Shown one piece after another: positions 11,338-64,000 of a stretch of 64,000 bases of DNA. Each line of letters begins with the position of its first letter. The stretch's first letter is position 1. The DNA comes from Thermaurantimonas aggregans (GTDB taxonomy: Bacteria > Bacteroidota > Bacteroidia > Flavobacteriales > Schleiferiaceae): positions 1 through 64,000 of the forward strand of contig NZ_BHZE01000005.1 of NCBI RefSeq assembly GCF_003851885.1. Direction: 5' to 3'. Below the pieces are notes generated by a model. The model made no database searches. It worked only from the letters and a program-made list of their open reading frames with translations, and was not told the origin of the DNA. Position numbers and translations under genes: made by a program.

Positions 11338-11366
11338 AGCTGTCTTAAGCAGGCAGCTTTTTTTTT
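11338..11366 (+). terminator. Terminator after the DUF486-rhodanese-DUF3365 operon
   Basis: AGCTGTC (11338-11344) pairs with GGCAGCT (11352-11358), with one G-U, around a 7-base loop, and runs directly into about nine T. It sits 26 bp after the DUF3365 stop. Confidence 0.75.
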
Positions 11367-11376
11367 ATTTTTTGGG

Positions 11377-11525
11377 GGGCGTGCCCCTCACTTCCTTCGC
11401 TTCGCTCTGTCGTTCGGGTCGGTCCCTTCCGGGCTCGCTGTTCGCTCGGTGCCTCACTTCGCTCGGCACTGCCGGCTCTGCCGGCACCCTACAGGCACCT
11501 CACGCGGCAGCAGCCTGTCGGCTGC
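11377..11525. repeat. Structured dispersed repeat, copy A
   Basis: A GC-rich block beginning GGGCGTGCCCC and ending in GCAGCC-TGTC-GGCTGC. A second copy lies at 63199-63347. The copies share a 37-base core (11416-11452 versus 63239-63275) and a 51-base 3' part with about six mismatches in total. The segment between GCCCC and GGGTCGG differs completely. A stem GTGCC/GGCAC (11449-11453 with 11465-11469) corresponds to GTGC/GCAC with a different interior in copy B. It fills most of the 314-bp gap before gcvT. It is most likely a high-copy structured element; I see no credible protein. Confidence 0.75.
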
Positions 11526-11625: not shown

Positions 11626-12702
11626 ATGAAACAAACTGCTCTCACCCATATACACCGGGCCATGGGTGCTAAAATGGTGCCTTTTGCCGGTTTTGAAATG
11701 CCTGTACAATACGAAGGTCTTATCGCAGAGCACCACGCCGTACGCCAGGCTCTCGGTGTTTTCGACGTATCGCACATGGGCGAATTTTTGGTCGAAGGTC
11801 CTGAAGCTCTTGATTTGATTCAATCTGTCACTACCAACGACGCCTCAAAACTCTTCCCAGGCAAGGTACAGTACAGCTGCATGACCAATGAGCAAGGCGG
11901 AATTGTGGACGACCTGCTCGTGTACATGCTCGCCGAAAATCGCTACATGCTCGTAGTTAATGCTTCAAACATCGAAAAAGACTTCCAGTGGATACAGTCC
12001 AAAAATCGTTTCGACGCACGACTTACAGATATATCAGATCAAACCTCACTTTTAGCTGTTCAAGGCCCTAAAGCCGCTGAAGCCATGCAGTCGCTCACCG
12101 ATGTTAAGCTATCGGATATGGGTTATTACACCTTTCAGTATGGCCGCTTTGCAGGCATCGATCATGTACTGATTTCTGCCACAGGCTATACCGGAGCCGG
12201 AGGCTTTGAGCTCTATGTGCCCAATGAGGCTGCGGAAACTCTTTGGAAAGCCGTGCTCGAAGCCGGCAAGCCATTTGGAATAAAGCCTTGTGGATTGGGT
12301 GCACGCGATACCCTGCGCCTCGAAAAAGCCTTCTGCCTATACGGCAACGATATCGATGACACTACCAATCCCATCGAAGCCGGGCTTGGATGGATTACAA
12401 AATTCACCAAAGCATTTACCGCCAGCGATATCGTAAAAAAAGTAAAGGAGGAAGGGCCCAAGCGAAAACTCGTTGGATTCGAAATGATCGATCGCGGCAT
12501 TCCACGCCATGACTATCCGATACTCAACGATCAAGGAGCAGTGATAGGTAAAGTCACCTCTGGTACCCAATCGCCTTCTCTCAACAAGGCCATCGGTTTA
12601 GGTTATGTAGCTCCTGACTCATCCGCACCCGGTAGCGAAATCTACATTGATATTCGCGGCAAGCAGCTAAAAGCTGTGGTGGTGAAGACACCTTTTTTGT
12701 AA
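11626..12702 (+). CDS. gcvT: Aminomethyltransferase, glycine cleavage T protein
   Basis: A 358-residue full-length T protein. It takes the aminomethyl group from lipoyl-H protein to tetrahydrofolate, giving methylene-THF and ammonia in the cytosolic glycine cleavage system. The N-terminus ([16 protein letters not shown]) and FDVSHMGE near residue 46 are strongly conserved, as are [12 protein letters not shown] near 188 and [11 protein letters not shown] near 225. It stands alone: gcvH and gcvP are not in the window, which is common in Bacteroidota. It is convergent with the S41 protease gene, 24 bp away. Confidence 0.96.
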
Positions 12703-59406: not shown

Positions 59407-59670
59407 CGCGTGAGGGATAGAAGCGGATATGAGCCGCAGCGGGTGGGGAATTGCGGCACCTGGGCGAGGCTGGCTGGCCCGAAGGGCAGACAACGCAGCC
59501 CAGACGATATCAGCTGGAGCTGATATGTCTGGACATGCCCAGATGAAGTCGGCTACTGCCGCTAGGATAAGCCAAGTCGGTGGTGCCGCCCCCACCCGCA
59601 AGGCGAATATGAGCGGATAGCCCGGCCTGAGCAGCTGCCCGAAAGGGCATGCTGCGAAGGACACGCCCAA
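59407..59670. repeat. Structured repeat element inside the his operon (hisC-hisB gap)
   Basis: A GC-rich, non-coding block. Outer stem 59439-59448 pairs with 59590-59599 (10 bp) and inner stem 59453-59460 with 59582-59589 (8 bp), with AATT bulged. A 9-bp palindrome ATATCAGCT-GG-AGCTGATAT is at 59507-59526. A further hairpin at 59631-59655 (GCAGC/GCTGC and TGCCC/GGGCA) closes with a GAAA tetraloop. AGCGGATA occurs at 59422-59429 and again at 59612-59619. Short ORFs across it change frame and look spurious. The rest of the gap (59323-59406, 59671-59738) holds nothing I can name. Confidence 0.7.
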
Positions 59671-62097: not shown

Positions 62098-62955
62098 TTA
62101 CACAATCATCTTTTCAATCGGAACCACCAATATACCTTGAGCGCCAAGGGCTTTGAGCTGCTCGATCACTTCCCAGAAGGTGTCTTCTTCCACTACCGAG
62201 TGCAGCGAGCTCCAGCCTTCGGTAGCCAAAGGCAGTATGGTAGGGCTTTTCATGCCCGGCAGCACCCGGGCAATTTCGGGTATGCGTTCGTTGGGTGCAT
62301 TGAGCAAGATGTATTTGTGGTTTCGCGCCTTGCGCACAGCTTGTAGGCGGAAGACCAGCTTGTCGAGCAATTCAGCCTTTTCACGGCTTAGGTCAGGTCG
62401 AGCTACCAGTACGGCCTCAGAGTGCATCACTGTGACTACTTCGCGAAGGCCATTGGTAAGCAATGTGCTGCCGGTGCTAACAAGGTCGCAAATGGCATCC
62501 GCCAATCCAATACCCGGTGCAATCTCTACTGAGCCGCTGATTTCGTGAATTTCGGCCGAAATTCCCTGCTCTTTCAGGTAGCGGCTCACAATGCGCGAAT
62601 AGCTGGTAGCAATGCGCTTACCATTTAGATCGGCAATGCCACTAAAAGGCTCATTTTTAGGTACTGCGATCGACAGGCGACACTTACCAAAGCCCAGCCG
62701 TTCGGCCACTTTGAGATTTTTATCCTTTTCAGCCACCACATTCAGGCCCACAATACCCACATCGGCCACTCCATCGGCCACGTACTGCGGAATGTCGTCG
62801 TCGCGCAGCAGGTAGATTTCCAGCGGAAAGTTCGATGCCTCCGTACGCAGCTTGCTGCCGTCGTTTGGGAAGTGAATGCCGGCTTCTCGAAGGAGCTCAG
62901 CCGACTTGTCGCTCAGGCGACCCGATTTCTGTAGAGCAATTTTCAATTTGGTCAT
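62098..62955 (-). CDS. hisG: ATP phosphoribosyltransferase, long form
   Basis: 285 residues from the ATG at 62955 (MTKLKIALQKSGRL). It is the first enzyme of histidine synthesis, joining ATP and PRPP. The length and the extra C-terminal ACT-like domain (about 205-285) mark the long, feedback-regulated HisG that needs no HisZ. The PRPP loop DLVSTGSTLLTNGL is near 160. An in-frame start at 63000 is ruled out because it lies inside the attenuator hairpin (62983-63004). Transcription is probably controlled by the hisL attenuator just upstream. Confidence 0.96.
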   Translation of the reverse strand: MTKLKIALQKSGRLSDKSAELLREAGIHFPNDGSKLRTEASNFPLEIYLLRDDDIPQYVADGVADVGIVGLNVVAEKDKNLKVAERLGFGKCRLSIAVPKNEPFSGIADLNGKRIATSYSRIVSRYLKEQGISAEIHEISGSVEIAPGIGLADAICDLVSTGSTLLTNGLREVVTVMHSEAVLVARPDLSREKAELLDKLVFRLQAVRKARNHKYILLNAPNERIPEIARVLPGMKSPTILPLATEGWSSLHSVVEEDTFWEVIEQLKALGAQGILVVPIEKMIV

Positions 62956-62971
62956 ACTTTTCAAGGGATTT

Positions 62972-63004
62972 AAAAACAAAAAGGGCTTACCGGTTGGCAA
63001 GCCC
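62972..63004 (-). terminator. his operon attenuator terminator (segments 3:4)
   Basis: On the RNA (minus strand) GGGCUUGCC (63004-62996) pairs with GGUAAGCCC (62991-62983), nine pairs with one G-U, around AACC. It is followed by UUUUUGUUUUU (62982-62972). It lies between the leader peptide stop and the hisG ATG, so it ends transcription before the structural genes unless disrupted. Confidence 0.92.
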
Positions 63005-63084
63005 TGAAAATTATACGGATATTATCGTGCTTACTGATAGGGATGATGCACTACACATCCTCGGCTTGCCCGGTGGTGGGAAGC
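62983..63084 (-). promoter_or_regulatory. his attenuator: alternative leader-RNA stems 1:2, 2:3, 3:4
   Basis: Segment 1 GCTTCCC (63084-63078, codons 14-16 of hisL) pairs with segment 2 GGGCAAGC (63071-63064) with one bulged base around ACCACC. Segment 2 GGCAAGCC (63070-63063) pairs perfectly over 8 bp with segment 3 GGCTTGCC (63003-62996). Segment 3 also forms the terminator with segment 4 (62991-62983). A ribosome stalled on His10-13 would cover segment 1, favouring the 2:3 antiterminator. A freely moving ribosome, or none, favours 3:4 termination. Confidence 0.88.
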
Positions 63085-63123
63085 GTGGTGATGATGAAGA
63101 TGGATGTGTACGCGCTGCATCAT
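63031..63123 (-). CDS. hisL: his operon leader peptide
   Basis: A 30-codon ORF (ATG-ATG-CAG start, TAA stop). Ten of 30 residues are His: positions 6, 8, 10-13, 16, 17, 26 and 27. The run of four at 10-13 is the expected ribosome-stalling site when charged tRNA-His is scarce. It is directly upstream of the GC hairpin/T-tract terminator and of hisG. The second ATG (63120) could also be used. There is no Shine-Dalgarno; a -7 box ends only 5 nt before the first ATG. The peptide itself probably has no function. Confidence 0.9.
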   Translation of the reverse strand: MMQRVHIHLHHHHASHHRASRGCVVHHPYQ

Positions 63124-63128
63124 GGCCG

Positions 63129-63136
63129 CAAATATA
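63129..63136 (-). promoter_or_regulatory. his operon -7 promoter box (TATATTTG)
   Basis: Exact TAnnTTTG on the minus strand with only CGGCC between it and the hisL ATG. A TTTTG ends 15 nt upstream, slightly closer than a usual -33 element. The start point should fall within a few bases of the leader ATG. Confidence 0.65.
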
Positions 63137-63198: not shown

Positions 63199-63347
63199 GG
63201 GCGTGCCCCCGGCGAAGGTGCTCGCAAGCACCTTGCCGGGGTCGGTCCCTTCCTGGCTCGCTCTTCGCTCGGTGCTACGCTGCGCTACGCACTGCCGGCT
63301 TCGCCGTCACCCTCCAGGCACCTCACGCGGCAGCAGCCTTCGGCCGC
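63199..63347. repeat. Structured dispersed repeat, copy B
   Basis: The second copy of the element at 11377-11525, same orientation. Its variable hairpin is near-perfect: CCCCGGC-g-AAGGTGCT (63207-63222) pairs with AGCACCTTGCCGGGG (63227-63241) around CGCA. The stem GTGC/GCAC (63272-63275 with 63289-63292) corresponds to GTGCC/GGCAC in copy A. It sits immediately upstream of the his promoter, preceded by a T-rich stretch as in copy A. Confidence 0.75.
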
Positions 63348-63473
63348 TTTTAATTACTTTTACTAAAACCAGTTATTGAAAGACTGATTTGTGCAGATTA
63401 TGCTGCGAATTTTTGCCGATAAATTTTTACTCACCCCAAATCCCTCTTTGTTGCCAAAGGCAACAGAGATCCA

Positions 63474-63582
63474 CAGATCCCGACAAATCTCCTCTGAGCT
63501 TTCGTCGGTAGGCAGATGGAGGTGGTAAGTAGAAAAAAGCCCTTAAAACATTTTCGCCCTACGACACAAGGCAGGCATTCCC
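63474..63582. repeat. 109-bp direct repeat, copy 1
   Basis: Identical to 63892-64000 except for two bases (T/C at 63494 and A/G at 63561), with copies 418 bp apart. Both begin CAGATCCCGACAAATC and contain TCGTCGGTAGGCAGATGGAGG. It is non-coding as far as I can tell; a 90-codon ORF from 63516 runs through unrelated repeat material and is not believable. Confidence 0.85.
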
Positions 63583-63653
63583 TGCTGTGGGGCAAGGGAA
63601 GAAGCCGGCGAGGCCGCCATAAACACCAACTATCAGGTACACATACGTCTGCC

Positions 63654-63690
63654 GGCCGACATTCCGGCTTCGCTGCAAAGAATGCCGGCC
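63654..63690. repeat. Hairpin in terminal repeat region
   Basis: GGCCGACATTC (63654-63664) pairs with GAATGCCGGCC (63680-63690) with one A/C mismatch around 15 bases. It lies between the two 109-bp direct repeats. Confidence 0.6.
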
Positions 63691-63719
63691 GTAGCTGTCG
63701 TGGCGAAAAGGATTTCAGG

Positions 63720-63762
63720 CTTGACCTTTTTGGTTCCTTTTTGTGTCAAGACAAAAAGGAAC
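63720..63762. repeat. 12-bp inverted repeat with loop complementary to its flank
   Basis: GTTCCTTTTTGT (63733-63744) pairs perfectly with ACAAAAAGGAAC (63751-63762). The 6-base loop GTCAAG (63745-63750) is the exact complement of CTTGAC just upstream (63720-63725), which allows a pseudoknot or an alternative hairpin. Similar CAAAAAGGAAC-type palindromes recur in Bacteroidota genomes, from memory. Confidence 0.7.
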
Positions 63763-63891
63763 GCCCGCGCGGCAGCGCATTCATATAGTCCAAAACGATA
63801 AACCTAACGAAAACCCACACCCCTTCAACACCCATTAGCGAGTCCTGCAGGCAATAATTCCCCCCTAATAAATCCAATGGAAATAGAGCCG

Positions 63892-64000
63892 CAGATCCCG
63901 ACAAATCTCCCCTGAGCTTTCGTCGGTAGGCAGATGGAGGTGGTAAGTAGAAAAAAGCCCTTAAAACATTTTCGCCCTGCGACACAAGGCAGGCATTCCC
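63892..64000. repeat. 109-bp direct repeat, copy 2 (cut by window end)
   Basis: Second copy of 63474-63582; the window ends inside or at the end of it, so the true repeat may be longer. The 860 bp from 63140 to the window end contain only repeat elements and no gene I can support. Confidence 0.85.

Follow-up and report, generated by a model that had tools for sequence, protein, structure and literature searches.

Flavo-1 (RF01705) is an RNA family without an assigned function (Weinberg et al. 2010, PMC2864571), and it counts as one of the most abundant sRNA families of bacteria (PMC9029176). REP, BIME and REPIN sequences with RAYT (TnpA-REP) are extragenic foldbacks dispersed through genomes; they carry hairpins and short conserved tags and form genome-specific families. 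MITEs are represented in Bacteroidota, for example, by one of Porphyromonas gingivalis (PMC4596501). Here we analysed a 64,000-nt stretch of the Thermaurantimonas aggregans genome (the window), in which two same-orientation copies of a repeat, A and B, had been noticed. It is probable that A and B belong to a dispersed, non-coding and non-autonomous foldback widespread in Bacteroidota, which is related to Flavo-1 and resembles REP/BIME sequences, and whose folded DNA strand, less likely a transcript, is read by a putative host protein.

The element is a three-way junction built of the helix P1 (GCGTG/CACGC) and two variable arms. The blocks GGGCGTGCCCC, GGGTCGG and CCTCACGC recur and make up the frame; the P2 arm lies between the first two blocks, and the P3 arm extends from GGGTCGG to CCTCACGC. 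The folded strand reads 5'-GCGTG(P1)-P3 arm-CCGACCC(P2 arm)GGGG-CACGC(P1)CC-AAA-3'. The features of the window are as follows.

11358-11376, + strand: T-rich tract to the left of A, an A-rich 3' tail on the folded strand
11377-11505, folded strand -: copy A, reading GGGCGTGCCCC...CCTCACGC on the + strand; the accessory hairpin extends to 11525
11377-11387, + strand: frozen 5' block GGGCGTGCCCC of A, the P1 5' side and P2 base
11388-11415, + strand: P2 arm of A, of the 'linear' subtype common to 12 copies, a G.A-rich imperfect helix on the - strand
11416-11422, + strand: frozen block GGGTCGG of A
11423-11497, + strand: P3 arm of A, subtype TCCC..GGCA
11498-11505, + strand: frozen 3' block CCTCACGC of A, the P1 partner of GCGTG in the 5' block
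11506-11525, + strand: accessory hairpin of A, GGCAGCAGCC..GGCTGC, found after some copies and outside the frame
11626-12702, + strand: gcvT, right neighbour of A
59408-59668: third, divergent copy between hisC and hisB, inside the his operon, reading GGGCGTGTCCT...CCTCACGC on the - strand
62098-63000, - strand: hisG, the gene to the left of B, with an uncertain start codon
63199-63328, folded strand -: copy B, reading GGGCGTGCCCC...CCTCACGC on the + strand; the accessory hairpin extends to 63347
63210-63238, + strand: P2 arm of B, a near-perfect hairpin
63321-63328, + strand: frozen 3' block CCTCACGC of B
63329-63347, + strand: accessory hairpin of B

Both copies lie where the original prediction had placed them. 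Their 37-base core, GGGTCGGTCCC..GGTGC, differs between A and B at 2 positions, and they share the common 3' part. The 15-bp near-perfect stem described for B is its P2 arm and contains one bulge. The hairpin proposed between GCCCC and GGGTCGG exists in B; in A, the segment TCACTTCCTTCGCTTCGCTCTGTCGTTC does not form it on the + strand (-1.9 kcal/mol), and the P2 of A on the - strand is only a purine-rich, G.A-rich imperfect helix within a clear three-way junction. On the - strand of both copies the junction is both the minimum free energy and the centroid structure with RNA parameters (z -2.65 and -3.46), and it is the minimum free energy structure with DNA parameters (z -3.02 and -1.30). On the + strand the junction is formed poorly or not at all in both copies (z -1.47 for B with RNA parameters). 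At P2 positions 4-5, Watson-Crick pairs are present in 88 elements and the tandem 5'-GA-3'/3'-AG-5' on the - strand in 75, and no element carries the tandem in the opposite order. The restriction of the tandem to the - strand order suggests that this is the strand that folds. The strand considered originally was probably the wrong one: the fold is on the - strand, which is also the strand that Flavo-1 matches in relatives. Directly after CACGC there is often a hairpin of the GCGGCC/GGCCGC type followed by T's (for example, 11506-11525 and 63329-63347), which makes the right edge resemble an intrinsic terminator on the + strand.

Searching the whole genome (2.67 Mb, 57 contigs) with the exact frame GGGCGTGCCCC-N20-45-GGGTCGG gave 38 matches, a number that under-counts decayed copies, because the exactness of the frame is partly imposed by the pattern. 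The reversed pattern, used as a control on the same genome, gave 0 matches, and when the window was simulated 20 times with a Markov-1 model, the exact frame did not appear once. With a covariance model built on the 5' module, about 55 full-length matches were found in the genome. The length of the elements in this genome is 126-253 nt. The T-rich tract before the copies was confirmed: T accounts for 92-97% at positions -9, -5 and -3 to -1 of the copies in this genome, and the last bases of the tract of A correspond to the TnnnTWTTT edge conserved in the position profile of the 38 copies. Elements lie in mixed orientation along and within contigs, and hence show no replication-strand preference. 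The 1.5-kb flanks of the elements, in this genome and in the wider family, are C-rich on the GGGCGTG strand, with a mean GC skew of -0.11 and negative values at 34 of 37 loci of this genome. This skew, taken in the orientation of the element, had suggested a replication-strand bias, yet orientations are mixed within contigs, and we dropped it as evidence.

The original prediction had read the rewritten stems between frozen flanks as a sign of selection on structure. Multi-copy covariation was decisive here: the rewritten stems preserve pairing. The element is not a decayed gene. The search left two P1 positions free, the base that follows GGGCGT and its partner; in 146 elements of named genomes they form GC in 112, TA in 33 and a mismatch in 1, so that P1 position 7 is paired in 145 of 146. 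The P2 and P3 arms were likewise unconstrained in the frame searches. P3 position 3 is paired in 237 of 239 elements (GC 186, CG 38, TA 13, other 2), and P3 position 6 is AT in 100, GC in 74, TA in 30 and CG in 21 of the same 239, related elements in these sets not being independent counts. In the P2 arms of the 239 elements the Watson-Crick fraction is 0.51, compared with 0.25 (maximum 0.287) when the 3' arms are dealt among elements, and the aligned P2 set of this genome has a covariation score above every shuffle and every slide. Covariation is also seen between species at the same genomic place. We have shown that the arms are free to change while their pairing is kept, and that the family expands strongly in single lineages.

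The original prediction had also placed both copies just upstream of metabolic promoters (gcvT and his). The genes themselves were correct: the start of gcvT is at 11626, and B has hisG, on the - strand, to its left. B is directed away from the his genes, and its right side is a tandem-repeat region and not a gene. The association with metabolic promoters seems fortuitous: the neighbouring genes are diverse, and 25 of 34 copies in this genome follow the 3' end of a gene. B stands at the head of a region made up of ~420-bp tandem units in which other palindromes abound (63345-64000 and beyond; loci L034 and L032), and the whole 1.1-kb stretch at B is 93% identical to the stretch behind another element copy on contig C4. 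The third copy (59408-59668), which the original prediction missed, stands in the gene order hisG-hisD-hisC-[third copy]-hisB, with hisG first. Its GGGCGTG.. strand is the sense strand of the his mRNA (-), and hence its folded strand is +. Upstream of hisG, at about 63043-63130 on the - strand, there is a run of CAT/CAC codons (CATCATCACCACGC), which could be a candidate his leader peptide; the one frame translated through the run is not open.

No Rfam family matched the window at the gathering score, and RF01705 matched none of twelve tested loci of this genome, covering all subtypes, up to an E-value of 5. In other genomes about eight frame elements have a P3 arm that RF01705 recognises on the - strand (for example, L236, L221, L223, L198 and L238), and several of these relatives are AT-rich. 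Flavo-1 matches of class I read TTTAGCCCCGAT...AGCGGGAA and have neither P1 nor P2; the other of the two classes reads GCGTGAGGGAT...AGCCCGACCC-P2-GGGTCACGCCCAAAT, which is the frame of the element. Type-1 copies of this genome (for example, L056 and L048) share GCGTGAGGGATAG.AGCGGA and GCGGATAGCCCGACCC with the Flavo-1 matches, and L094 is an intermediate. A and B have a diverged P3 subtype, in which part of the P3-proximal nucleotides of Flavo-1 is absent. It seems that RF01705 covers a single arm of an element of this type. Because no locus tested in this genome was matched even at an E-value of 5, A and B are called relatives of Flavo-1 rather than members, and the link passes through intermediates.

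The - strand may be recognised as DNA or as RNA. Counted on either strand, wobbles make up only 6 of the 717 pairs at P3 positions 3, 5 and 6; in a small control, the acceptor and T stems of 10 tRNAs from the same loci, 9 of 120 pairs were wobble. In RNA, too, tandem G.A mismatches and GNA loops are stable. The motif GCGNAGC occurs 380 times on the - strand of the elements and 7 times on the + strand, compared with 67 in Markov simulations, and d(GCGAAGC) is known as an extraordinarily stable DNA mini-hairpin with a Tm of 78 C (PMC4686876). G·T and A·C counts pooled over the helices are dominated by one conserved mismatch and are ambiguous either way. The near-absence of G·U pairs together with the strong enrichment of the d(GCGNAGC) mini-hairpin leads us to favour, though not as proven, a DNA-level foldback over a dedicated RNA. 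A structured RNA would be a Flavo-1 sRNA or a UTR element, with the - strand transcribed and the junction serving as an RNA stabiliser, processing site or regulator. The strand-specific fold and the purine-purine internal mismatches on the - strand agree with this, as do the Rfam listing of Flavo-1 as an sRNA on the corresponding strand and the syntenic pair L216/L236, in which the element forms a leader on that strand ~20 nt before the start codon. However, the covarying pairs are almost free of G.U and the transcriptional context is inconsistent; in Flavobacterium psychrophilum, moreover, Flavo-1 matches occur on either strand relative to transcripts, and many of them are not transcribed (PMC9723704), an indifference to the transcript strand that fits a DNA element. 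We therefore regard the RNA explanation as rather unlikely, if still the strongest of the alternatives.

The suggestion of a mobile element family holds as far as dispersal is concerned. Species of one genus carry 0, 1, 2, 8 and at least 104 copies, and near-identical copies with unrelated left flanks occur in the genome studied (L032, L052 and L039). Simple hopping does not hold, since many elements are inherited in place. The matches listed place the frame in Flavobacteriia, Sphingobacteriia, Bacteroidales, Treponema and Fibrobacter. It is rare in viral contigs (12 contigs of IMG/VR with the strict frame), no phage match to the element was found, and a search of the literature for its sequence gave only chance strings. 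The only plasmid match to A, unannotated and 77% identical over 97 bp, is on a plasmid of Pontibacter sp. G13 (NZ_CP134698.1, 91903-91999). The original prediction had proposed a search for an associated REP-type transposase; it turned out that the genome contains neither Y1_Tnp (PF01797, 0 matches; the control was positive in 5 of 14 genomes) nor a reverse transcriptase (PF00078, also absent in genome G211). An alternative is a currently active transposable element, MITE- or IS200/IS605-like, for which a Y1 or another transposase would act at T-rich terminators. The spread of copy number within one genus, the near-identical copies in different left flanks, the T-rich left edge with a site behind gene ends, and strong Y1_Tnp matches in several copy-rich genomes (for example, G037 and G211) would speak for such activity. 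On the other hand, this copy-rich genome lacks both enzymes, the frame lies beside none of the 4 Y1 loci of relatives that were inspected, two of which have only an isolated single block (GGGTCGG in L342 and CTTCACGCA in L339), no target duplication is visible at the element edges, orientation is mixed along contigs with no replication-strand preference, and positions are conserved across species. Current transposition is thus improbable.

Comparison of flanking proteins revealed 11 groups of elements at the same place and in the same orientation across species. Their arms are rewritten and the pairing is mostly kept; the identity of the frame in syntenic pairs is partly imposed by the search pattern. 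In L031/L318, from the genus of the window, with flanking genes 83-92% identical, P1 has undergone a compensated change (GGGCGTG..CCTCACGC vs AGGCGTT..CCTAACGC) and the inner P2 is rewritten. In L248/L276/L279, P2 and P3 are different hairpins in all three. When chimeras were made from the left arm of one species and the right arm of the other, P3 folded less well in 11 of 12 pairs and P2 in 9 of 12. Most simply, the copies would have stayed in place by inheritance while their arms were rewritten; the alternative is repeated insertion at the same spot and in the same orientation. No exact empty site was found at the icd locus of genus g41, where 2 species have the element and 2 do not and the junctions are not alignable, the relatives being too diverged. 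In genomes G037 and G143 an element lies upstream of icd, on the same side in both and with unrelated arms (L289 and L290), and two other species of the genus are without it. In genome G198, the locus of A is at a contig end.

Pairing might also be kept by mutation alone, through template switching between arms (quasipalindrome correction) or inter-copy conversion, without selection on the fold. Copying an arm in one step would yield wobble-free pairing; L180 and L285 are identical at 62 of 70 positions of P3 while P2 is replaced whole (32 vs 11 nt), and P2 is alike within genomes and different between them. Against this, correction would erase the conserved mismatches of the helices, namely C.T at P3-4 in 175 of 239 elements and the tandem G.A in P2, and the frame blocks recur across a phylum. 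We consider mutation without selection unlikely. Finally, a transcription terminator or gene-end insulator is very improbable: copies of this genome do lie a median of 38 bp after the end of the co-oriented left gene, but the third copy sits inside an operon, in the hisC/hisB gap, and phylum-wide the left genes are 55 on + and 63 on -.

The foldback read by a host protein remains our preferred explanation. A putative host protein would read the frame on the folded DNA strand, either single-stranded during replication or extruded; a transcript would be a less likely target. The element would then work like an extragenic palindrome of the REP/BIME type. Some agent may occasionally copy it to new T-rich gene ends, after which it would be retained. 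Its arms may change through compensated drift, through template switching from one arm to the other, or through conversion templated by other copies. We infer both the recognition by a host protein and the mechanism of arm rewriting; we know of no protein that binds the element, and the searches of the genome for Y1_Tnp and reverse transcriptase found no mobilising enzyme. A bolder version is less probable: a phylum-wide foldback of DNA and not of RNA, in which the arms are re-copied from each other in single template-switching steps and the junction frame is all that a host factor recognises. Flavo-1 would in that case be a mis-annotated fragment of the DNA element and not an sRNA. If so, hairpins at fixed chromosomal places would be continually replaced without wobble intermediates.

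Compared with known systems, the element has an ordinary side, being an extragenic foldback repeat whose relative is an already catalogued motif. It shares with REP, BIME and REPIN sequences the traits named at the outset. It is larger (126-253 nt), forms a three-way junction with arms rewritten in place, has no Y1 transposase in this genome, and instead of a GTAG/CGTC-type tag beside the hairpin carries the blocks GGGCGTG, GGGTCGG and CCTCACGC. As a derivative of a retroelement or group II intron it would be expected with a reverse transcriptase, which this genome lacks. Like the MITEs of Bacteroidota, it is small, non-coding and dispersed, with terminal complementarity; unlike them, it lacks long terminal inverted repeats, a target duplication was not visible, and no partner transposase is known. 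With Flavo-1 it shares the frame of the P3 arm (GGGAT.AG.GGA..../..CGGATAGCCCGA), the strand, the dispersed distribution and the occurrence in Bacteroidota. RF01705, in contrast, is a single stem of 76 positions, many of its matches are without P1 and P2, and the copies of the window have both, with GC-rich arms of other sequence. What is new over RF01705 is Flavo-1 plus P1 and P2. What is unusual is the breadth of the family, the frozen frame beside freely rewritten arms, the wobble-free covariation and the replacement of arms at orthologous sites, which provides a natural record of hairpin evolution in bacterial chromosomes. Flavo-1 has been without a function since 2010, and placing many of its sites as one arm of a larger three-way junction offers a testable alternative at the DNA level.
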